IMG/VR virus record: IMGVR_UViG_3300038451_000172 | Location: 1-20,866 of that record | Reading direction: 5' to 3' (one strand) | Length of the DNA stretch: 20,866 bases | Source: a virus | Shown here: piece by piece, positions 1,063 through 20,817 of the stretch | Layout of the letters: each line of letters starts with the position of its first letter | Numbering within the stretch: the stretch's first letter is position 1 | The notes under the pieces: model-generated | Database searches by the model: none | What the model was told of the DNA's origin: nothing | Seen by the model: only the letters and a program-made list of their open reading frames with translations | Program-made: the position numbers and the translations under genes

Positions 1063-3350
1063 TGCGCTTCTGCCGCGTAAGTGATAATCAAATCGCAAAC
1101 GCAATTTGGATGATAGGGAGGCCCATCGTCACCCGTGGAAAACGTCTCATCCAAGTCAATCTCTCCGTCGTCTGCAGCATCGTCGCACTCGTCGTCGCCG
1201 TCATGCATCGATCCGAGGATGCTGGCCTTCTTCATCTCGACACCGGTACTGGCCGCGCCCAGGAGCGCGCCCTGAATTTGGGCCTTTGCCAGTTCCGTCC
1301 GTGCAATCATTTCAGCCCTGCTTTCGCTGAACTGAAACGAATCCGCAATCGAATCTTCCAGCGCCTGTGGTCCCAGCCCGTCCTCAAATGCCCGGGTCAC
1401 CGTGTCGCGCAGAGCGTCCCGCGTGGTGTCCGTGATGGCCCACCGAGGATTCGGATTCTCGATCAGTGTGTCGCCGTCCCACTTCATGCCCACCATTTCC
1501 GCGGCACGGTCCCGAGCAAAATCCACGGCTGCTTGATTCACCTGATCGAACACTGCCTTGTCCGTCACGCCTACTTCCACCAGCACATCGCGTGCGACTT
1601 CCTGGGCTGTTTCCTCGATGGCCGACTGCGAGGAAGTAACAATCGCGTCCCATTCGAGTTCTATCGAGCGCACGATGCGGTCGATTTCGTCCTCATCCGT
1701 CTTGGTGACTTCCGCATAGTGATCTGCCACCTTCGCGGCAATAGCCTTGCCCTGCTTCTTCAGGAAGCGTCCTAGTACCCCTGCCAGTCGGCCGATACGC
1801 TTCTCAACCCGCGCCGGCAGCTTCCCCGTCGTTACCACAATCTTTTTTTTTTCGGCTTTGGCCAGCGCCAGCGCAAACTTGTTGGCAACCTCTGCGGATT
1901 TGGCCCTAGATTCGCTCAGGGGCGGCTTTGCGGCAGGTGCCTTGGCTCCTGGTACGCCGCCCGCTGCTCCGTTCGCTGGCGGCAGCATGGGCTTCGGCGC
2001 GCCCGGTTTCACGCGCCCATCGCCACTCTTCACGTCGTCCAGCATGATCGGCCCGGTTTGGGTCAGGATGAACGGTCCAATACCCCACGGCTCCTCGCCG
2101 TCGCGGATGCGGAGCTCGTCCACGGAACTTTTTCCGCAGCTTATGTAGATTTTGTCGACTTGCGCCTGCACCAGCGGATCAACTTCAACGTCATCATCGA
2201 AGGATGCCTCAATGTCAGGGAAGTTCAGGTACTGCGGAGCCTGGATCAGGTAATTCAGTTTCTCCAGAATCCAGACCTTTGACGGCTCGAAACCTTCTTC
2301 CAACGCCTGGCGCTGCTGCTGCTGGCCGCTGGCCCGGTTCATCATCTTCACGAATGCCGTAGGCGGCAGCGAGAAGCAGAAAGCCACAATGCGCGCCCGC
2401 CACTCCTCGAACTGATCGAGCAGCATGTCTTTCTTGGCAAATGTGATCTGGCCAGGGCCTTTTTCACCGAGCGATGGGATAAAGCGAAGCATGCGGCGCG
2501 CAGCCAAGTTGCCTTCTAGGGCTGCGTCAAATGCGCGTTGGAACCGTTCGATCTGGTCCGGGGACCAGTCAGGCGGAACCTGAGCAATCGCATCTGGAAT
2601 GGTGCCCGAGGTATACTCGGCCAGCCGCGAAACATCACGGCGCAACCCTAGATTGATCATAAAGATGATCTGCTCGACCGGGCTCATGCCGTAGACGCGG
2701 TGCGTGCGCAGATTGCGCGGCATGTAAACGAGTTGATTCGTGTTCAGGTCGCAGAGGATCTGGCCCTTCACGATTTGCTGGTAGGCGGTGAAGGGCGCTT
2801 TGGGCGTGGTGCCGTCCGGCCCGAGGCGGATGCCGATGGTGCCGCCATCGGTGGGAACGAACCGCGTCACCTTCTGGGTCTTTGAATCCCGTCCGACGAG
2901 CAAGCTGGCGCAGTCGGCAACAAGTTGATCCTCGAACCACAGCCTCGTCCATTCGTGGAAGTCGTGTTCGCCGTCCGGCCGGTCGAAGAACTTGCGAACG
3001 TCATCCACGCGCGAGTCATTTTTGCTGCGCTTCTTTACCTTCGAATCGGGCTCGTCTGCGTCCTCTTTCTTCAGCCCAAAGTGAACGACCAGTTTCGACA
3101 CCTGATCCTTGCGTGTTTCGATGCAGGTCCGAGTCAGATAGTCCGTGTCAGCCAGCATGCGCAACTGCTCGAAGGAGATTCCTTCGTAACTCCTGGGCAT
3201 GTACGAAATGTTGTAGCCGACCGGATAATCCAACCGGCGCGCTTCACCGTCCGTGACCGTCGGCTTCAGCGGCGGCAGGGGCGACATGAAGACGTCATAG
3301 TCCGCCCGCGACATTGGCCGTGGAATGATGCTGGTTTTTGGAACACTCAT
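1059..3350 (-). CDS. Portal protein fused to MuF-like head morphogenesis domain
   Basis: This 763-residue protein has two parts. Residues about 15-440 look like an SPP1/HK97-type portal, the dodecameric ring at the DNA-entry vertex: N-terminal helices, the RVYGMSPVEQ segment around 218-227, and a clip/stem-like region around 300-370. An Ala/Pro/Gly-rich linker covers about 445-480. Residues about 490-760 look like the MuF minor head protein family, with RTELAKAQ near 684-691 and the characteristic HPNCVCDL at 747-754. In most phages these are two adjacent genes; here they are one polypeptide. The ATG at 3350 lies one base after the stop of the 78-aa gene, and its TGA overlaps the next start. 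The first strong head-structural gene after the exported fibre-like cluster. Confidence 0.88.
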   Translation of the reverse strand: MSVPKTSIIPRPMSRADYDVFMSPLPPLKPTVTDGEARRLDYPVGYNISYMPRSYEGISFEQLRMLADTDYLTRTCIETRKDQVSKLVVHFGLKKEDADEPDSKVKKRSKNDSRVDDVRKFFDRPDGEHDFHEWTRLWFEDQLVADCASLLVGRDSKTQKVTRFVPTDGGTIGIRLGPDGTTPKAPFTAYQQIVKGQILCDLNTNQLVYMPRNLRTHRVYGMSPVEQIIFMINLGLRRDVSRLAEYTSGTIPDAIAQVPPDWSPDQIERFQRAFDAALEGNLAARRMLRFIPSLGEKGPGQITFAKKDMLLDQFEEWRARIVAFCFSLPPTAFVKMMNRASGQQQQRQALEEGFEPSKVWILEKLNYLIQAPQYLNFPDIEASFDDDVEVDPLVQAQVDKIYISCGKSSVDELRIRDGEEPWGIGPFILTQTGPIMLDDVKSGDGRVKPGAPKPMLPPANGAAGGVPGAKAPAAKPPLSESRAKSAEVANKFALALAKAEKKKIVVTTGKLPARVEKRIGRLAGVLGRFLKKQGKAIAAKVADHYAEVTKTDEDEIDRIVRSIELEWDAIVTSSQSAIEETAQEVARDVLVEVGVTDKAVFDQVNQAAVDFARDRAAEMVGMKWDGDTLIENPNPRWAITDTTRDALRDTVTRAFEDGLGPQALEDSIADSFQFSESRAEMIARTELAKAQIQGALLGAASTGVEMKKASILGSMHDGDDECDDAADDGEIDLDETFSTGDDGPPYHPNCVCDLIITYAAEAQ

Positions 3351-6649: not shown

Positions 6650-9600
6650 TTACCATAAAGTACATGAACTGCCCCGGTAAATCGTAAGCGAATCGCTGGC
6701 GCTTCCACTCAGCGTCATGATGTTCAGTGTTGTGGCTCCAGAACCCTGCTCCAGTTCACCCCAAATCTCCGCAGTAAATATGTCGGCCACGGTTCCGATT
6801 GCGCCAAAGGCGCCCGGTGTGAATGTCCCGATGTTCGTTGCGGTAGTGGTGGCCAATGTCGGCAACGTGGCGGTCACACCAGCATTCGTAAGACTTGTGA
6901 GAACCTGCATGGCAGCATAGAGGTTGGTCGGCGCGGTCGTGGCCGCTTGCACGCCAAAGGCATTCGCGGCTGCTGCGGTAGCCTGCGAGTATGAGAGCGT
7001 GCAACTAAAGTGGTAGTTATGGTTGGTGGCCGGGAAGGTCCATGACAATCCCGTGATGGTGACCAGCGACGTGCTGGTTGTGGTGAAGTTGCTGGCAACA
7101 ACGACGGTGTTACCAGCGCGCAGCAGGCCCGCTGCACTGCCTGCGGCTCCCGTTCCAACGTCCACGATGCCAGCCGCATCGCGGCTTAAGCCCGTGTCGG
7201 CAGCCGTCGCCGCATCGGTCGAGCTGCTCGACATCCCGAATACGCCGCCAGAGATGATGTTCACATTTCCGGCGCTGGTGAACTGATGCGAGTCGTTCGA
7301 TGCGGTCCCTTTGCCGATTCCGATCGAGGTCGCGCTCGCGCTGTAGAAGCCGAAGGTCGTACCCGCCGCAAAGACAAGCGAGGGATTAGCTGCACTCCCG
7401 TTGATGATTTCGACAGCGCCGGTGCCATTCGGAGATAACAGCAAGAAAGCGTTCGAAGTTGTGGTCGAGATCGTTGTTGCCGCGCCGCTTGCGCCGGAGA
7501 GCGCAATCCCTTCCGAACTGGTCACGGTCGTCCCATTGTCGGTTACGGCTGATGCTGAGGGAGCCGCAGAACTTCCAGCTTTAATCAGCGCGTTTGCTGT
7601 CAGCGCTTCGGTCGTGGACATCTGCGTGGCCGTGCTCATGTACGGGATGCCCCACTGGGTCGCAGAGGCCAGCCATCCAATCGTGGAGAACGCGGGATTC
7701 GCTGAACCTGCACCGACCAGAGGCATATTCGCAGCACCCGCTGCCGTTGATTGCGGTGCAGATCCAACGGCCCCGGCGACTACCACGCCATACTGCGTGA
7801 GTGCTCCGCCAACAGACAGCGCTGTGGTCGTTGAGGAGTAAACCAACCCGCCTTGCGTCACGGCCGAGGTCGGAATGGCGACGGACGAGAAAATCGGCAG
7901 CGTCGAAGCGCCTTGGCCGATCAGCGGCATATTCGATGCGCCGGCTAGAATGCTCTCAGTCACAACACTGGAGGAGTTCGACCAGAGAACCAGCCCCGTC
8001 GCTGCCGCACTGGGAACGAGAACTTCATAAGCCGTCACGCTAGCGGGACATTCAAATGTGAAGGTGTTGGCGGTGGCATGGCCATTCGCCGAACCTTGCG
8101 TGCATTGGAAGTAACCCGCAGTCGAGCCGTTAGCAGTGAACACAGGAGCAACATAGCCGCTCGTATCGGTCGTGGTTACGCTTGTTCCATTGTCCGTGAT
8201 GCTGGAGGCCAATGGCGCTGTTCCTGCGCCGCCGCTCTTTGGCAGCACATTCGCGGTGATGAGTGCGGACGATGCAAACGCCGTCGTGCTCGAAGCGTAC
8301 ATGAAACCACCCGAGGTCAACGCGGTTGGATACGCAATGGTGGACCAGATTGGATTTGCGGACGATTGACTAATAAGTGGGAAGTTCGCGCCACCCGCCG
8401 CTGCTGTCACGCCGAGTGCTTGCGTGCCCGCGCCCAGCATGACGCCGTACTGCGTTGGGGCCGTTGCCGTCAGACACCCGGTTTGAAAACTCGGTGTCGT
8501 CGTTGCGTAGGAACTCGCCGCGCTCATAAAGCATTGGCTGTTCGCTGTGGGCGTCGCCCAGCTCGGGTTCGTGGCTCCAGAAACTTTCACGCTGTAGGCT
8601 GTCGTGGCCAGTTCCGCGACGGCACTCGCGGTGACGTAAAGCTCTGCGCCCGCCGTCGTTCCCGTCAAATCAGTGTCCGCGGGCTGCGTCTGAGTGAACG
8701 CGCCCGTGCTCTGCGTGTACGAGTTCAGCCACTTGTGCGAGGCGTTCGCTAATGTCGATGGAATTGGGCCGCCGGCGTCGGTCAACGTGCAAATAGTGGT
8801 AGACGTAACGCACTTGACGGCATCGCCGGTCGTCGGCGCAGTGGCAAATCCAAGAATCGTATTCGATGCTGTCGCCGCGCTGCCCCAAGTCGTTGTGAAG
8901 TTTCCAGATGCGGGGTACATCGAGAGCGTGCCGGCGGTTCCAGAAGCACCAATCGTGAGCGTCGGACTCGACCAAGTGAGGTTCACGCCTGCGTCAGCAA
9001 GCTGCGTCGTGCTCGACCCAATGACGAAGTGATTCGCAGCAATGGATGTCAGATAGGCGATTGTGGAGAACGCTGGATAGGCTGATGCCCCTCCCCCCAG
9101 CAACGGCATATTCGACGCGCCGGGACCAATGCCCTCAATGGTTGTGCTGCTCACCCACGCGGCTACTTGATATTGAGACGGCGTTCCGCTGTTCGATACG
9201 TTACCGCCACCGCCAGGCGAGGTCCATGAAGGCACGCCACCAGATGTTTCCTGAAGCCAAGCAGTACTGCCGTTGTTCCCAGCGGCCAGCGACCAAGTCG
9301 TGCAAGCGCTCGCCGTATAGGCTGAGCAATAGAGAATGTCCCCGATGCGCGTGCCTGCGGGAAGCAAGCTGACGAGAGCTGCTGCCGCGCTCGAAGCGTT
9401 CGTGCCACCGTTAGCGAGCGGCAGAGGACTCGCAAGAGTGGTACCCCAGGAGGTTCCACCGGACACGATCGCAAAGCCGCTTCCCGAGGGATAAGTCATA
9501 CTGCCGCCAGCACCCCACGACACGTTGCCGCTGGCATCCTCGGTGAGAACTTTCGTGCCGCTGGCGTTTCCCGCAAACTTGGCCCAAGTCGTCCCGTTGC

Positions 9601-12600
9601 CAACCAATAAATCGCCATTCGCTGCAGAGGTCAAAATGGACTCGGTGACAACGCTGGAAGAATTTGTCCAGAGCGGTATCCCCGTCGCAGCGGCACTTGG
9701 TAGCACGATCTCAAACGACGTGACCGATGCCGGGCATTCAAATGTGATCGTATTCGCCGTGGCGTGGCCGTTTGCGGTGCCCTGAGTACATTGGAAGTAG
9801 CCTGCCGTTGCTCCATTCGCTGTGAATGCTGGCCCAACGAATCCGCTTGTCGCTGTCGTGGTGACTGTGGTGCCATTATCTGTGATGGTCGAATTGTTTG
9901 GCGCACCACCAGCGCCACCGCCGCGGACTAGTACGTTCGTGTTCAGAATTGCCGAAGAGCTTTCTTGTACCGTCGAGTTGAAGTATGGAACGCCGCCCGA
10001 CGTGACTGTGCCGCTGATAGTCAAAGGTAGAGCAGTTGACCCGCCAGTGATGGAGTTGCACCCGAATAGTCCTGTCGCCAAAGTGAACGTGACTGCACTC
10101 GACGCTGTGTGGCAGTCGATAAACGACTGCAGCGTCGGCATGATCGGGAAAAATGTGCCCGTGTTATCGGTGTACTGGAAACCGAAAGCATATTGCGGCA
10201 GCTTACCGAATCCAATCTGTGAGCCGGAGGCCGGCGTGTAGGTCACACTCCCAGCGCCGATATTGAACATGCTAAAGACGATGTTTCCGGCCAGTGCGGG
10301 TCCCGTCATCGTGGTCGCAGAACCATTGCTCGTCGTGAGCAAGCTGGCATTCATCGCTGACGTGACTGTATCGGATGTTCCCACGAAGGCGTTGACAGGC
10401 ACACCTGGAATTGTGCAAGTTGGAGCGACTGCCACGCCGCTCACGACGTTGTAGCCGCACACATAGTTCCCGTTTGCCGTTGGAGGCGTCAGGCTGCCCA
10501 CTGTGGTTGAGCCGGTGTAGTACGCCATCCCATAAGTTGTGCCACTGGACAGTGTTCCCGAAGGAGCAGACCATGTGCCATCACCGCGCCAGAAGGTCGA
10601 GGAGCTAGCACCGGTACCGCTATTCAAGTTGTTGACGGATAGGTTGCCGCTGACCTGTGTGGCCAGATTAAGTGTGCCGCTGATATTCGAGAAGCCTGGC
10701 TGCGCGCACCCAGGAGCCGTGTTGCGCGTAAGTGTATTCACCCACTGGTTTGCAGAGCAAGATCCCACACCAGAATACGCGCTGCCAAGTCCGGCATCGG
10801 TCAAGGTGCCCGAAATGGCGAACTGCACGTTGCCTACGCTTGGATTCGAGGCATTGATTGTAATGCCCGTAACAGTCGCACCGTTCTGGAAGTTGATCGT
10901 GGACTGATTTGAGGTGGGTGTGCCGTTGACCTGAATCGTGGCCCCACCGCTGGACGTGGTGCCGCAGGTTAGCGCGTGCGTCGTTGTGCTGTAATTCCAG
11001 TGATTTCCTCCAGAATCAGGACAATTAACCAGCGAAGTCCATTGGCCGGTCCCCGCGGCGGTTGTATTGATCATTTGGTCCGCGGCCGAGTTCGTTGGGA
11101 CCGTAGTGCCGTTGATACGGATGGCCGTAAGCGCCAGCGACCCAGCCGAGTTAATGACGTCGCCTGTATGCGCTGGTTCTTGGGCAGCCTGCAGAGTGCC
11201 AGAAACGTCAGTTCCTAGCGCTACAGCGCCATAAGATGGCAGTCCCGAGGCGTTGCCATGCAGGACCGTTGTCGTGGTGCCCAGCGAGGCTAGAACCTTC
11301 AAATCCGTCCCACCGTTGCCAACGGCGAGAGCGTTCAGCGTCAGATTTCCCGCTGTGTTCGTAACCGTGCCCGCACCTGAAGGTGTGCCCCATGTTCCAT
11401 CGCCCCTCCAATAGGTCGAACTGGACGCGCCGGATCCGCCGTTCAGGTTAGCAACGGGGAGATTGCCGGTCACTTCCGAGGCCAGATTGACCTGAGCCCA
11501 GATGTTCGTTCCATGCAGGACCTGGCTGTTGGTTCCTGTTCCCAATCGGGCGAGGATTCCGCCGCTCACTGTCCACAGATCACCGTTCGTTGTCAGCGGC
11601 GTGGCCGACAGTGGCAGGACGCCAGAGAGATTTGAATACAACGGTTGTGCCTGGCTAAAGACGCCCGTGGCCGAATTATAGGCCGTGATGAACTGATTCG
11701 AGACTGCCGGGGTGTTGCCAGGCGCTACAGGCGTGCCAGAAATCTGCGCATATGCGATTGTGACGTAAGTCTGCGCGCCAGTCAGGAACGTGTTGGCGTT
11801 AGCCGTGCCGCTGCCCAGTTGCGAGGCAGGTACTAGGCCGCTCCCGTTCAGGCCAGCGTAGCCGCTGACCGCGCCCTTGTGTCCTGTCACTTCGCAGGTG
11901 GGGCAGGCCAGAGTCGCACTCCCACTCGATCCGCTAAAAGTCAAAGGTGAAGTGAACGTCGCGGTAATCAGGTCCAGCGAATAGTCTCCGCTTGTCGCTG
12001 TGACCGCACCGGTGCGGCCAAATACGGATGACACCGCACCGCCGCCGCCACTCGTCGGCATGCAGCTCGCGCCGGCCGAGTTGATGCAGCCAATTAGGCC
12101 ACTTCCAGAATCGAAGTACACTCGCCCGAAGCCGGAGGCAGGGTTTGCTGGTGCAACCTGCTGTCCAATGTCAAAATAGTGCGTACCGAGATTGTTGTTG
12201 GCGCTGGTATCGAAAGCGTTCGTGACTTGCGCTGCGGTGTAATCGCCACTGGCCGCGACGACGCCCCCAGTACGACCAAAGACTGAACTGACCGCACCAC
12301 CGCCCCCGCTACCAGCCGTGCAAGTCCATCCCGAGGTCGTCCATTGGAGAACGTAAAGATTGGTGCATCCATTCGGCGGCAGTACCTGCGCGATCGGAAT
12401 CATCACCCCTGGCGCCGTCGGCCACAGCACACGCACCCCGCTTAGGCGAATCGTAGTACCACTCAGCGGCACCACCCACGTCTCGCGGAAGCGGGCGGTT
12501 GAAGTCGCATAATCCACGCTATAGCTGGTGCCAAAAGGTGATGCCCCGATGTTAGGCACGAGCTGCACGCTGAATGAGCCGGTCGCGTCGAGGATGATGT

Positions 12601-12793
12601 AAGTTTTCTGGCCAATCAGGACCGTGTAACCGTCCAGGGAAGTGAAGGTCTGATTCGTCGTGACGGTCAACTGCCCGACAACGGTGCCGTTCTGTGGCGG
12701 GATGAGCTGGTCGGCAATTGTGGTGCGGATCTGTGCAGAGACTGGCAAGACGGCAAGCAGGAACAATGCGAGGATGATCAGTCTGTTCTTCAC
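6650..12793 (-). CDS. Giant exported repetitive tail-fibre/adhesin-like protein
   Basis: This 2047-residue protein starts at GTG 12793, inside a GTGA overlap with the terminase stop and preceded by GAGGAAG. Residues 1-20 form a Sec signal with a likely cut at VSA|Q. Two SSVFGRTG motifs (169-176 and 255-262) and several YWRGDGTW / FWRGDGTW elements are typical of phage tail-fibre shafts. The remainder is Ser/Thr/Ala/Gly-rich beta repeat. A block of roughly 70 residues ([22 protein letters not shown]) occurs twice, encoded at about 9634-9846 and 7949-8160. No enzymatic motif is seen. It is probably the main adhesin or fibre of the particle, or a phage-encoded surface protein; the signal peptide makes the second option real. 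The C-terminus ends in an aromatic/Cys segment (SSCTLW). Confidence 0.75.
7949..8160 (-). repeat. Internal duplicated block of giant fibre gene, copy B
   Basis: This encodes the second copy of a block of about 70 residues ([16 protein letters not shown], then [10 protein letters not shown]). It is clearly similar at protein and DNA level to the block at about 9634-9846. It shows module duplication within the fibre-like gene. Confidence 0.7.
9634..9846 (-). repeat. Internal duplicated block of giant fibre gene, copy A
   Basis: This is the first copy of the duplicated module ([16 protein letters not shown], then [10 protein letters not shown]); see copy B at about 7949-8160. Differences are scattered substitutions, so the duplication is not recent. 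Confidence 0.7.
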
Positions 12794-17100: not shown

Positions 17101-17880
17101 CTACGCGGCTTTTTCTTTTTTGCTTGGAACTGCCTTTAGACCGGGTATTTCGATCTCGCAGTCTCTGACCAGATATTTCCCGCACTCGAACGCTTTCGCG
17201 CTGCCGAGGCCGACAATCATCCCCATCGCCACGACTTGTCTGAAATCGTCCGTCTTCAAATTGCTGGGAAGAAGGCGATACTCGAAAGCGAAGCGAGTTC
17301 CGACCTCTGCGCATTCTGAATTGTGAATGATTGATTTCATGCCCTGCGGACCACCGACGCGGCCACGAAACTCACGAAAATGTGTCTTTGCCGGTTTCTT
17401 TCCGCTTGCGTCACGAAGATAGATGCGCTCAGGATGAGATGGATCAACCAGGCTGATTCCTATCGCGCGAACGTTTCCAGCTTCCGCGAAGTCACCCTTT
17501 GAGCCTTTGTGCTCAATGAAAATCTTGAGCCGGGAAGCTGCCTGTTTGTAATGCGCCTTAATCATCCAGTCGCCAATCCACGGACCATTTTCGTCACGCC
17601 GGATAATATTCACGCCGTATGTCACCTTTTCGCTGAGTTCTCCGAGTTCGGGAGTCGCATCGCGCTCGCCGATCTCTTCCTTCTGCATCCGTTCGACCGC
17701 AGCATCGAGTTCCTTTTCGGAAGTGATGCCGAGGTGGAACTTGGCGAATGCGCGTAAGCCTTCCTTGTCCGCTGGCACACCGCCAACAATCTCGGTTGCC
17801 AGCTCGCATTCCACACGAATCACCGCCGTTTTTTCTTCGTAGGACTCCCTCAGTTCCTTCAAACTAAACTTAACTTTCAT
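17101..17880 (-). CDS. Conserved-looking phage protein with RAMP/Cas7-like glycine-rich loop
   Basis: The start at ATG 17880 follows AAGGAG at 17891-17896; the open frame beyond it only reads through the repeat array. The 259-residue product has an early GGVPADKEGLRAFAKFH segment (33-48), YGVNIIRRDENGPWIGDWMI (88-107) followed by a helix, a GRVGGPQGMKSII segment (173-185), GTRFAFEYRLL (194-204), and a C-terminal GLGSAKAFECGKYLV (224-238). This order recalls, from memory, a phage family ending in a GLGQWRN..G.GRF loop, and the last motif resembles the glycine-rich loop of RAMP proteins such as Cas7. No catalytic residues stand out. It directly follows the pentamer array, so it may bind it. The RAMP link is a hypothesis. 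Confidence 0.7.
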   Translation of the reverse strand: MKVKFSLKELRESYEEKTAVIRVECELATEIVGGVPADKEGLRAFAKFHLGITSEKELDAAVERMQKEEIGERDATPELGELSEKVTYGVNIIRRDENGPWIGDWMIKAHYKQAASRLKIFIEHKGSKGDFAEAGNVRAIGISLVDPSHPERIYLRDASGKKPAKTHFREFRGRVGGPQGMKSIIHNSECAEVGTRFAFEYRLLPSNLKTDDFRQVVAMGMIVGLGSAKAFECGKYLVRDCEIEIPGLKAVPSKKEKAA

Positions 17881-17979
17881 GCGCCTTTTTCTCCTTTTCG
17901 TTTTGCCGCTAAGTTCGATCACATATCGTTGTGCCGCTACGCGAAGTGCCGCACAGCACAGTTCCATCGGGTGATGCCA

Positions 17980-18019
17980 CTGGGTCCGGTCAAGTGCCGT
18001 GAAATAAGGTGAAGCCGCT
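17980..18019 (-). repeat. 40-bp direct repeat within array, copy 1
   Basis: Identical to 18261-18300 at 38 of 40 positions. Both cover one six-pentamer segment, its two free bases and the flanking anchor bases. The two mismatches are in the pentamer CTTAT versus ACTAT. Shows that segments can be copied to a distant place in the array. Confidence 0.9.
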
Positions 18020-18123
18020 GCGTTATATCGAGTCCTATCTAGTCCGGTCAAGCCGCTCCGCACAGTAACGTAGAGTTGTGTTTTGTCGGGCCGCTCAGTG
18101 CTGTTTCATCGAGCCGAGTCATG

Positions 18124-18237
18124 TCATGTTTCGCCGCTCTGGCACGTCGCGTGGAATCATGTCATGTTTCGCCGCTCTGGCACGTCGCGTGGAATCATGG
18201 GCTGTTTCGCCGCTCTGGCACGTCGCGTGGAATCATG
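18124..18237 (-). repeat. Three tandem 38-bp array units
   Basis: Three adjacent copies with an exact 38-base period, differing mainly at one pentamer (ATGAC versus AGCCC). They are three near-identical n=6-type units and suggest recent tandem growth of the array. Because 38 is not a multiple of three, the unit is read in all frames, which argues against protein coding. Confidence 0.92.
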
Positions 18238-18260
18238 GGCTGTCGGGTCCTATCTCGCCG

Positions 18261-18300
18261 CTGGGTCCGGTCAAGTGCCGTGAAATAGTGTGAAGCCGCT
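18261..18300 (-). repeat. 40-bp direct repeat within array, copy 2
   Basis: Second copy of the unit at 17980-18019 (38 of 40 identical), separated by seven other array units. Confidence 0.9.
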
Positions 18301-18356
18301 CCGTGTTGCCACATCGGGTAAAGTAGAGTCGGGCCGCGGAGTTTCATGACGCTTCG

Positions 18357-18620
18357 TCACGCCGCTTTGTTGAGTTTCTTCGATGCGAGTTTCTTGTTCG
18401 TCGCGTTTTTCGGGGCTGGCAAAAAGGGCACGTAAGCAGTGCCATACAAGCGGCCAGCAACCCGAGCTGCGTTGATTGCATGGCCGGCACCTTGGAGACT
18501 CTGCCCGCGCATCTTTGCAAGAGCTTTCTCGATTTCCGGCTTATGCCTTCCGGTCAGGAAAGCCTTTCTGTCCGCCTTGATCTGCTCCATCACTTCTGAG
18601 ATTTCCGTGATTACGTTCAT
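18357..18620 (-). CDS. Small hypothetical basic helical protein upstream of the array
   Basis: This 87-residue protein starts at ATG 18620 behind a clear AAAAAGGAG ribosome-binding site. The N-terminal half is helical and charged (VITEISEVMEQIKADRKAF, IEKALAKMRGQ). A GAGHAINAARVAGRLYGTA segment follows, and the C-terminus is Lys/Ala-rich (KKLASKKLNKAA), suggesting nucleic-acid contact. The last Ala-Ala codons supply the first AGCGGC anchor of the array. The gene is the first of the array cassette and sits behind a candidate divergent promoter. No family is recognised; a role with the array RNA or DNA is possible but unproven. Confidence 0.75.
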   Translation of the reverse strand: MNVITEISEVMEQIKADRKAFLTGRHKPEIEKALAKMRGQSLQGAGHAINAARVAGRLYGTAYVPFLPAPKNATNKKLASKKLNKAA

Positions 18621-18877: not shown

Positions 18878-19297
18878 TCACTTCTTCGCTGGCGCAGGCG
18901 GTGCAGGCAGCGGCGTAGGCGGCGGTGGTGGCGGCGGCGTAGGCATCGGCGGTGGCAATGTCAGGATCTGCGGCTTGAACGAAAGCGTCTCCTCATCCCA
19001 CGTGTAGCCTTGCGGCACCTGGCCCTGCAGCCGCGTGGCCATGCCGTTCAACTGGTCCACCTTGGCGGTCAGGTTCTCTTTTTTCTGGATTGCCGCGACT
19101 TCGTCCCTGAGCGCCTTGAACTCCTGCCACTGCTCGACAAACTCCTTCGGCGCAATCTTATTTTCCGCTGGCGCCACCTTCACCGCTTTCAGCGGCGGCG
19201 TCTGATTGCAGCCGACGATCAGTGCCACCAGGCTCACCAGCAACAGCACAATAAAAACTCCGAACACTGCGCGTTCTTTTCTCGAAATGTTGCTCAT
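18878..19297 (-). CDS. Proline-rich lipoprotein, possible outer spanin
   Basis: The ATG at 19297 overlaps the upstream TGA as ATGA and follows AGGAGG. The 139-residue product has a basic start, a hydrophobic core (about 11-28) and a lipobox IVGC with Cys30 as the lipid anchor. A coiled-coil-like middle follows (FVEQWQEFKALRDEVAAIQK). The C-terminus is a run of Pro-rich sequence (TLPPPMPTPPPPPPPTP). Proline-rich lipoproteins with little else are typical of Rz1-like outer spanins, which disrupt the outer membrane at lysis. No endolysin, holin or inner spanin is seen nearby, so it could instead be a superinfection-exclusion lipoprotein. Confidence 0.75.
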   Translation of the reverse strand: MSNISRKERAVFGVFIVLLLVSLVALIVGCNQTPPLKAVKVAPAENKIAPKEFVEQWQEFKALRDEVAAIQKKENLTAKVDQLNGMATRLQGQVPQGYTWDEETLSFKPQILTLPPPMPTPPPPPPPTPLPAPPAPAKK

Positions 19298-19599
19298 GTT
19301 TCTTTTCCTCCTGTTTTTTCTTCCTGCTTGGGAATTGATTCAACCTGGACGCGACCTTCGGGGATTTGTGGTGTCGGCCACAACGCCTCGAAACTTTCGC
19401 TGTAGACGAGAATGAAAAACATGCCGCGCTCGCGGTTGAATGCCGTGCGAAGCGCTTTCGCATCCGGCGGGAAACCTTCGGTCACGATCCAATGAATCTC
19501 CTGGCCGTGAACGAACACCTTGAGTAGCTCCTCCACCGGCACCGCATATAGCTTCACACGGTTGAGGTTCGGCTTTGCTACCACTGCGGGCTCAGTCAT
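19294..19599 (-). CDS. Hypothetical 101-aa protein
   Basis: The start at ATG 19599 forms an ATGA overlap with the replication gene stop, with a GGGGAAAA upstream; the longer frame from 19746 shadows that gene. The product has a compact alpha/beta look: VKLYAVPVEELLKVFVHGQE, then IHWIVTEGFPPDAKALRTAF, then MFFILVYSESF. A charged tail follows (KQEEKTGGKET). It is translationally linked to the replication gene and the lipoprotein. No family is recognised. Confidence 0.7.
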   Translation of the reverse strand: MTEPAVVAKPNLNRVKLYAVPVEELLKVFVHGQEIHWIVTEGFPPDAKALRTAFNRERGMFFILVYSESFEALWPTPQIPEGRVQVESIPKQEEKTGGKET

Positions 19600-20501
19600 T
19601 TCGTTTTCCCCGCGAGGTCTGGATATTTCGCTTCGAGCTCTTTGAGCTCCCTGTGGGTTCGCTCTGCCTGCTCGGGAGTTGGGTTGCGATTTCCTTCTCC
19701 AACCCTGGCATCGGCAAGTACCGGGGAACTCCCGGCCAATTCCCATTTGTCGTAGTTGCCTTCCAGAACTTTCATATAGTTCGTATCATTTACGATAAAC
19801 CAGTCGAACGTTGGCGTCCACGTTGGCCAGCCAATACGACTCGCGTGCTCAACGCTTTGCTCAAAGTCCGCCAGGAACTTTTGCGTTTCTACTTTGTGAT
19901 TCAGAAGACGCTGGCGGCACTTGCTCAGGCGCTGTGGGGATAACTCCCTCACTCCTGGCAGGCTTCCGCGCTTCTGATCGTAGATTGCTAAAAGATCTTC
20001 TGGAGAAACACACACAGCGGCGTCAGCCGCAGGTTTTGACGTATTCCCTACCAAACCTAACCCTACCCCTACCAAACCCAGTGAGGATTGTCCTAGGACA
20101 GCTCCTAGGAGAGTCCTAGGATGTAAAAACTCTATAAGTTGTTGAGTAGGAGGGGTCTTACCGCATACCATTTTTATTCTTTGACTAGGTGGTGGAAGGC
20201 GTCCTTCCTTCTCAATTCCGACCCAATAGCCCCATTCCTTGCCATCTGGCTCATGCCAACGGAAAAGAAGCTTCACCCGCTCGTACTCATCGAGGATGGA
20301 TTTCACAGTGTCAGGGAAGATGTCCGGTCGGTTGAAACTGTACATTCGTGACCAGATCTGAGCTGGTGAACACTCAAAGGACCCGTTGGCAAGCGCCAGC
20401 GTCACGAGAAGTGCATATTCCGCGCGGTAGGCGAACGGCTGCACTTCGCGCAGCTTCTGAGAGGTCGCTATGGAGTCTCCATCCACGATCCGCTTAGGCA
20501 T
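19596..20501 (-). CDS. Phage replication initiation protein (O-like)
   Basis: ATG 20501 is chosen over a TTG at 20522 because it has GCAGGCGA just upstream. The 301-residue product starts MPKRIVDGDSIATSQKL and continues with an EYALLVTLALANGSFEC helix, PAQIWSRMYSFNRPDIF and WGYWVGIEKEGRLPPPS. This layout is typical of the N-terminal winged-helix origin-binding domain of phage replication proteins. A Gly/Leu/Val-rich linker follows (about residues 135-160), encoded by the iteron-like DNA. The C-terminal part has a segment with WTPTFDWFIVNDTNYMKVLE near 235-260, typical of the partner-binding end of these proteins. The gene overlaps the HTH gene stop by eight bases. It probably loads the host helicase. 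Confidence 0.8.
   Translation of the reverse strand: MPKRIVDGDSIATSQKLREVQPFAYRAEYALLVTLALANGSFECSPAQIWSRMYSFNRPDIFPDTVKSILDEYERVKLLFRWHEPDGKEWGYWVGIEKEGRLPPPSQRIKMVCGKTPPTQQLIEFLHPRTLLGAVLGQSSLGLVGVGLGLVGNTSKPAADAAVCVSPEDLLAIYDQKRGSLPGVRELSPQRLSKCRQRLLNHKVETQKFLADFEQSVEHASRIGWPTWTPTFDWFIVNDTNYMKVLEGNYDKWELAGSSPVLADARVGEGNRNPTPEQAERTHRELKELEAKYPDLAGKTK
20046..20141. repeat. Iteron-like cluster: candidate replication origin inside the replication gene
   Basis: Three perfect TCCTAGGA palindromes lie at 20091-20098, 20103-20110 and 20114-20121 (spacing 12 and 11 bp). Beside them a 12-base direct repeat CCCTACCAAACC occurs at 20046-20057 and 20067-20078 with partial copies between. An AT-rich stretch follows (about 20122-20141). 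All fall in the linker-coding part of the replication gene, the same arrangement as oriλ inside gene O. The encoded linker is low complexity, as expected if DNA function drives the sequence. Confidence 0.6.
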
Positions 20502-20817
20502 TCGCCTGCTCTCTTTGGGCAATCACGTCCAGTAAACTCATTTGGCCCTTGGGCGCGGGGTGCATGAACCAGGAATAGACCGTGCCGTCAGTCCTGCGTT
20601 GGGTGCTGTTTAGAATCTCGAAACCTTCCCGGCGCAACTCCAGTATTCTGGTCCCGTACTGTAATGCGATGCCCGCGAGCAAATATGCTGGTACCCAAAA
20701 TCCTTGCCGTTCCAGCAGCAGGACCTTGATCTTTTCGCGCTGGGTCAGGCGCTTCACGCTCTCCTCCTGAAACTCGCTTGTCTCGCCTGCCATTTTTGGC
20801 GCCGATGCTCTTTCCAT
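20494..20817 (-). CDS. Helix-turn-helix accessory protein
   Basis: This 107-residue protein starts at ATG 20817 with a weak GGTGA before it; an internal ATG at 20793 is an alternative. The core (LTQREKIKVLLLERQGFWVP, then LAGIALQYGTRILELRREGF) has the layout of the short HTH_39-like winged helix common in phage replication and early regions: a helix, a variable turn, then a recognition-type helix ending in RREGFEIL. The C-terminus contains a YSWFMHP segment and ends with a basic helix. It directly precedes the replication gene with an eight-base overlap, so a role in early control or replication is likely. Confidence 0.7.
   Translation of the reverse strand: MERASAPKMAGETSEFQEESVKRLTQREKIKVLLLERQGFWVPAYLLAGIALQYGTRILELRREGFEILNSTQRRTDGTVYSWFMHPAPKGQMSLLDVIAQREQANA

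Follow-up and report, generated by a model that had tools for sequence, protein, structure and literature searches.

The array and the genes on its two sides

The window, by which we mean the whole stretch of 20,866 nucleotides of the IMG/VR virus record IMGVR_UViG_3300038451_000172, has a phage setting, with terminase and portal genes present. Between two of its minus-strand genes, at 18357–18620 and 17101–17880, there is a candidate array of vrRNA-like guide RNAs at about 17900–18378, for which the minus strand, on which both flanking genes lie, gives the best reading, and which extends beyond the 18124–18300 of the original prediction. The array consists of units of the form GCGGC-(NNNAY)n-NNA, with n being mostly 6, where a unit with n = 6 has 38 bp (5 + 30 + 3) and units with n = 7 and 8 have 43 and 48 bp, respectively. 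It holds 13 exact GCGGC anchors and 73 pentamers, with a parser score of 322. In the control, where 17890–18380 was shuffled 2000 times with the dinucleotides preserved, the lag-5 identity reached at most 0.329 versus 0.409 in the real sequence, the lag-38 identity at most 0.329 versus 0.545, the number of GCGGC anchors at most 6 versus 13, and the number of anchor distances equal to 3 mod 5 at most 4 versus 10 out of 12. The blastn search of the array against phage records matched nothing and Rfam gave no match in the window, while Rfam on seven loci returned two tRNAs only, with no hammerhead and nothing on the arrays themselves, for which no structured 3' tail was found. No promoter was found in the promoter scan, and the terminator-like sites amounted to one, fewer than in the shuffles.

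It had been predicted that the units are duplicated both in tandem and at a distance, and this description of the copies is borne out. Tandem Repeats Finder gives a period of 38 with 3.1 copies and 96% matches at 18119–18237; the block that starts at 18124 recurs unchanged at 18162, and the third block, starting at 18200, differs from them only in its three leading bases, where TCA becomes GGC on the plus strand and, correspondingly, ATGAC becomes AGCCC on the minus strand. Parsed on the minus strand, this region contains a 43-bp unit, GCGGC GAAAC ATGAC ATGAC TCGGC TCGAT GAAAC AGCAC TGA, at 18095–18137, and two 38-bp tandem units, at 18138–18175 with the dinucleotides GA AT AT TC GC GT AG and at 18176–18213 with GA AG AT TC GC GT AG, the latter containing the change of ATGAC to AGCCC. 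The unit of 48 bp with n = 8 (18214–18261) has its 3' part as in the tandem unit and extra pentamers at its 5' end, in that GAAAC is replaced by GAGAT AGGAC CCGAC. The 38-bp unit at 18262–18299 is a distant duplicate of that at 17981–18018 (dinucleotides TT CT TT GG TT CG CC), with one dinucleotide being AC versus CT; over 18261–18300 and 17980–18019 the two are identical at 38 of 40 positions, with both changes inside one pentamer. As regards the further claim that change proceeds by whole pentamers, the swap of ATGAC and AGCCC is real but is a single event, which is thin ground for a rule.

The gene at 17101–17880 (minus strand) is vipr-like and encodes a protein of 259 aa with the predicted RAMP fold, including an RRM core, and a G-rich loop, GLGSAKAFECGKY, the motif of which is conserved in the family as GLGSxRSxExGKF. 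Based on the AlphaFold2 model, which was built with a 10-sequence alignment and has a mean pLDDT of 79.6 and a pTM of 0.74, the protein is predicted to fold like the CRISPR RAMP proteins Csm3 and Cmr4. Foldseek matched the model to 111 PDB chains at E ≤ 1e-3, with the 50 matches listed being CRISPR effector complexes or RAMP subunits, and the best match by VIA-align is a Csm subunit of L. lactis, with Z of 11.1 over 170 residues and rmsd of 4.1; the TM-scores of the fold matches are moderate, 0.3–0.5. Moreover, the second-ranked viral match to the protein is annotated as 'Cas system-associated RAMP superfamily protein', and hhalign aligns the family (11 sequences) with five Vipr proteins of the published type at E of 2e-6 and probability of 89, the match spanning the C-terminal ~155 residues only. 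Among these five, SUSP1 Vipr is as given in PMC13142463 and the other four are Vipr by homology to SUSP1. Pfam, PHROGs and NCBIfam had no useful match for the 17101–17880 protein, the PDB searched by sequence gave one match at chance level (E 0.36), and the PADLOC HMMs run on 10 homologues singly gave one Csm4 (1.4e-5), one type IV Cas7 (0.0084) and nothing for 8 of the 10.

The gene upstream of the array, at 18357–18620 (minus strand), encodes 87 aa and has homologues in the same place upstream of the arrays of L012 (10067–10399), L013 (9570–9881), L015 and L022. In the leave-one-out HMMs the member left out was the best non-training match in 5 of 5 cases, with E ranging from 6.9e-11 to 0.5 (0.032 for the member in the window). 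The family, which has no database name, is a candidate partner or accessory of the RAMP protein, and may be comparable to the vap genes, of which vap1–6 are named (PMC13142463).

Three other features of the window were also observed. At 20084–20121 inverted as well as direct repeats based on TCCTAGGA occur within the gene 19596–20522, the product of which matches replication-initiation/helicase-loader families; the repeats may be an origin of replication situated in the initiator gene. The gene at 18878–19297 encodes a small protein, the N-terminal segment of which is membrane-like; its C-terminal tail is rich in proline and is encoded by GGC/GGT repeats at 18897–18957. The open reading frame at 6650–12793, of 2047 aa with many repeated motifs, probably encodes a tail fibre or appendage protein.

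Arrays of the same kind and the gene family that accompanies them

Arrays of this kind are present in 12 virus records, namely the window and eleven others, in otherwise unrelated sequence, and in 11 of the 12 the array adjoins a member of the same gene family. The records were reached from two sides. From the side of the array, the strict pattern of one n = 6 unit occurs in IMG/VR in six stretches, each being part of a long array, the n = 5 and n = 7 patterns added two more IMG/VR records, and in bacterial and archaeal genomes, of 257 Gb in total, the strict n = 6 pattern has no match. In six of the seven records thus found besides the window the gene adjoins the array, so that among the first eight records it is beside the array in seven; by blastp it is the sole protein family widely common to them, with no other family occurring in more than two of the eight and one further small match linking two records. 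From the side of the protein, the search of IMG/VR with the family alignment gave nine relatives, three of which lie in new records (L022, L023 and L027), where the scan with the single sequence had given none, and tblastn of phage records gave one relative in an isolate, Microcystis phage Mae-JY09. In all four of these records found by the protein a pentamer array adjoins the gene. Bacterial and archaeal genomes gave no relative of the protein.

In all 11 records having both, the array and the gene are touching or within ~100 bases of each other and are on a common strand, with the array being before the gene, after it (as in L014, L018, L023 and L027) or on both sides. In the remaining record, G006, of 256 kb, the search for the protein gave no relative. 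The GCGGC array of this record (L017 9328–9571, which is G006 119327–119570) is short, with its GCA/ACA spacers being near-constant, and the candidate readings are that it is an orphan or is served by a distant protein. In L022, at about 3190–3340, repeated units of the TCCGACTGCTCC/CGCTGCTCC type were seen, apparently a cysteine-serine-rich coding stretch.

The comparison across records was made by running the parser on eight of them (the window and L012–L018), which gave 1028 pentamers, showing at the DNA level tandem pentamers with a hypervariable dinucleotide. Position 4 is A in a fraction.85 and position 5 a pyrimidine in.99 (C.78 and T.21), while position 3 is G in.45, and positions 1–2 are near random. 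Correspondingly, the information is ~0.05 bit at positions 1–2 and 1.0–2.0 bits at positions 4–5, where it is inflated since the parser rewards these two positions. In terms of the constant part, NAY occurs in 867, GAY in 413 and GGY in 35 of the 1028 pentamers. Between anchors there are mostly 4–9 pentamers, and an array has up to ~36 units. The anchor varies with the protein lineage while the five-base step is constant: NNA-GCGGC in the GCGGC arrays, NNT-GCGAC in L027 (anchor TGCGAC) and NNG-CCGAC in Mae-JY09, where the pentamers end in C (NNNNC) and the lag-5 identity is.445 versus a maximum of.408 in 2000 permutations. The reading of the pentamers as codons was rejected, with stop triplets at positions 1–3 in 48 of the 1028.

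The original prediction held that the phase is kept and that this reflects selection on the five-base step rather than simple slippage. The phase is indeed largely, though not perfectly, kept, with anchors standing 3 mod 5 apart for 120 of 161 distances in the GCGGC arrays, 30 of 35 in L027, 5 of 6 in L022 and 1 of 2 in L023, the array of which is cut by the contig end. Selection on the step is favoured by the cross-record comparison, in which positions 4–5 are constrained and positions 1–2 almost random, while slippage or recombination may still have made the copies. The data support that selection acts on the product staying in phase, whatever made the copies, and the adjacent RAMP protein offers a physical reason for a fixed five-base step.

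Reading of the candidate guides and explanations of the array

For the decoding, each guide was composed of the dinucleotides at positions 1–2 of its pentamers, followed by the first two of the three spacer bases, and 148 guides of 6–12 dinucleotides were scanned, with skips of 0–3 target bases, against 775 kb. This sequence, in which the arrays were masked, was taken from the array phages and, in part, from SUSP1 and Mae-JY09. At E < 0.03 the numbers of matches for skips of 0, 1, 2 and 3 are 0, 1, 0 and 0, respectively. The single match is that of a guide of the sister phage G001 (unit L012 9336–9378), which fits its site at 18 of 18 bases with a skip of 1 and with E of 4.6e-5 for that guide. 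The site (L012 8925–8950) is in the phage's own vipr gene, ATG GTG CAG GCC TGC ATA AAG CAG GC, the target sequence for the reading with the 1-nt skip being GANAGNCCNAGNATNTCNGCNGTNAG, and every skipped base is a wobble base. When only the own vipr genes of the phages are searched the guide has E of 5e-8, a value reached by 0 of 300 order-shuffled guide sets. The longest contiguous word common to the unit and the vipr gene is 7 bases, and the third pentamer positions match the skipped bases in 2 of 8 cases. The 18/18 match supports the 1-nt-skip code for this class, with one guide of one sister phage as its basis, and the self-match suggests either self-regulation of vipr or targeting of related vipr genes. 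A second G001 guide, matching the own vipr gene at 13 of 14 with a skip of 1 (E 4.5e-4), was rejected, since it is off the wobble phase and is not significant over all tests. Also set aside was the reading of the dinucleotides as codon positions 1–2, for which the symmetrised correlation is 0.99 and which is the best model in 225 of 300 bootstraps, with the control P2P3 having favoured it too.

The guides of the window have no target in the 775 kb or in their own vipr gene, and its 9-dinucleotide guide has 0 matches in IMG/VR. For one G001 guide of 10 dinucleotides, 9 of which were searched, IMG/VR gave one match, which is 19/20 over the whole guide; for a G002 guide searched in the same way there are three matches, in which the site begins in each case at the first codon position of an ORF, but the three proteins are unrelated and have an I-I-L-D-G motif in common. 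Further guides of G001 and G002 showed no clear convergence on the matched contigs, and the IMG/VR matches are candidates only for targets. In the three tandem units of the window one dinucleotide differs (AT/AG), the antisense codons being I/M versus L in L-T-A-D/E-I/M-x-S, and it may be speculated that the change is a tracking of target variants.

The most likely identity of the window array is a multi-guide vrRNA array, and we consider it very probable that the minus-strand array gives rise to short guide RNAs for the RAMP protein of 17101–17880, which are read as dinucleotides with a 1-nt skip. Based on this explanation, the minus-strand array, situated between the 87-aa and vipr-like genes, would be transcribed, and the 8-base junction NNA-GCGGC, parting the guides, would be a likely processing or start site. 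The RAMP subunits would then probably line up along the RNA, one per five bases, gripping the constant part (A at position 4, C or T at position 5 and often G at position 3) and leaving the variable positions 1–2 exposed, so that these could pair with the target DNA, with one target base being skipped before the next pair; n pentamers together with the last dinucleotide would read ~3(n + 1) target bases. Such DNA binding could silence competing phages or the vipr gene itself. With the filament gripping every five bases, change by whole pentamers and units with the phase kept would be expected: duplicated units would be duplicated guides, copying in phase would keep the guides readable, and guides for variant or longer targets would come from the change of one dinucleotide or the addition of pentamers.

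An explanation by a DNA element, in which a protein would bind tandem operators or iterons spaced by five bases and thereby serve autoregulation, replication or packaging, would account for the intergenic position next to coding sequence and for the strict spacing. It is, however, improbable, because positions 1–3 are nearly random, unlike binding sites, the neighbour has an RNA-binding fold, and the array is on the vipr strand in every record with the gene, on either side of it. A degenerate CRISPR array, or mini-CRISPR array, could also be proposed, with a handle of 8 nt, which is the length of the crRNA handle; the RAMP protein and the variable stretches parted by an 8-nt junction would fit. 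This we regard as more doubtful still, because the spacer-like stretches carry A-Y every five bases, unlike copied spacers, the junction is constant at 5–6 bases only, and the scan of ten window proteins named no cas gene.

If the array were a functionless minisatellite made by replication slippage or recombination, near-identical copies in tandem and at a distance would be expected, as are seen. However, most units differ, yet the step, the anchor and the phase hold across the 12 records and follow one gene family, and one unit decodes exactly to a gene; a code common to unrelated phages counts strongly against neutrality, and we give this explanation very little weight. ToxI-like RNA arrays of type III toxin-antitoxin systems have ~36-nt tandem repeats before the toxin gene, to which the unit length is similar, as is the order in the window, where the gene follows the array, but with a RAMP-fold protein whose fold matches are CRISPR subunits, unit sequences that are not conserved and the array lying after the gene in four records, this explanation has almost no probability left.

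If the preferred explanation, that is, guide RNAs read as dinucleotides by the RAMP protein, is true, it would mean that very short RNAs could be used to program the recognition of DNA. It would be expected that the Vipr of this clade reads A-Y and not GG-Y, and that in one phage the vipr gene is the target of a guide from that phage itself. The guide duplications and the single-dinucleotide changes are natural sets for studying the evolution of guides, and in the NNNAY arrays it is the RNA code that varies widely, with tens of guides, 8-nt junctions, no tail and a changed motif, while the five-base step stays.

Comparison with VIPR and CRISPR-Cas systems

The VIPR kind has been known since 2026 and, as described in the main text of the preprint PMC13142463, combines a single small RAMP, which is mostly that of a phage or prophage, with RNAs built from YNNGG pentamers, the variable NN of which pairs with DNA while one target base is skipped per step, usually the wobble base; its effects include the silencing of competing elements. 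Seven types are given there, with the constant part being GGY/NN 'or a related consensus'; the published guides have the NNGGY consensus and a tail and are of ~100 nt, those of type II having 9–16 repeats followed by a structured 3' tail, and 'staggered arrays' are mentioned as well. Consistent with that description, NNGGY tracts were found by the vipr gene of SUSP1, and among the four relatives of SUSP1 Vipr such tracts near the gene are clear for three, while there is only a weak one for phiHSIC.

The system analysed here is like VIPR (SUSP1 vipr, ALH47069.1) in having one small phage RAMP gene flanked by pentamer tracts with a hypervariable dinucleotide, in the alignment with a 1-nt skip on the wobble base in the one decodable guide, and in the homology of the protein profiles. 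By contrast, the pentamer of the window type is NNNAY (NNNNC in Mae-JY09) versus the NNGGY described in the main text; the guides are many and short, mostly of 4–9 pentamers, with 8-nt junctions and no 3' tail seen; and the proteins have 215–293 aa versus 195 aa for SUSP1. The 9–16 repeats with a structured 3' tail, as described for type II, are not what is seen here, which counts against type II alone, as the other types differ in architecture. The literature search gave no other paper on the NNNAY array layout, and the main text of PMC13142463 is without it, but its supplement may hold it, and the layout may already be among the seven published types. It is thus counted here as a variant of VIPR and not as a new kind.

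A stronger proposal would be that of a distinct VIPR class, with dozens of short guides per array, a constant 8-nt junction for each, no acquisition genes, guides diversifying by in-phase duplication and at least one of them regulating vipr. We hold this tentatively, at slightly below an even chance. If it is true, the layout would be intermediate between single vrRNAs and CRISPR arrays, where it has been proposed that viral gapped-code guide RNAs preceded CRISPR (PMC13142463). With the RAMP subunits of class 1 CRISPR-Cas (Csm3, Cmr4 and Cas7) the protein has in common the predicted fold, the G-rich loop and the expected filament on RNA. The array differs from a CRISPR array, with its identical repeats and unconstrained spacers, in having 5–6 constant bases per unit and A-Y every five bases; and the system differs from class 1 CRISPR-Cas in being without CRISPR repeats and in its step, which is 5 bases here versus 6 for the CRISPR RAMP proteins (PMC13142463).
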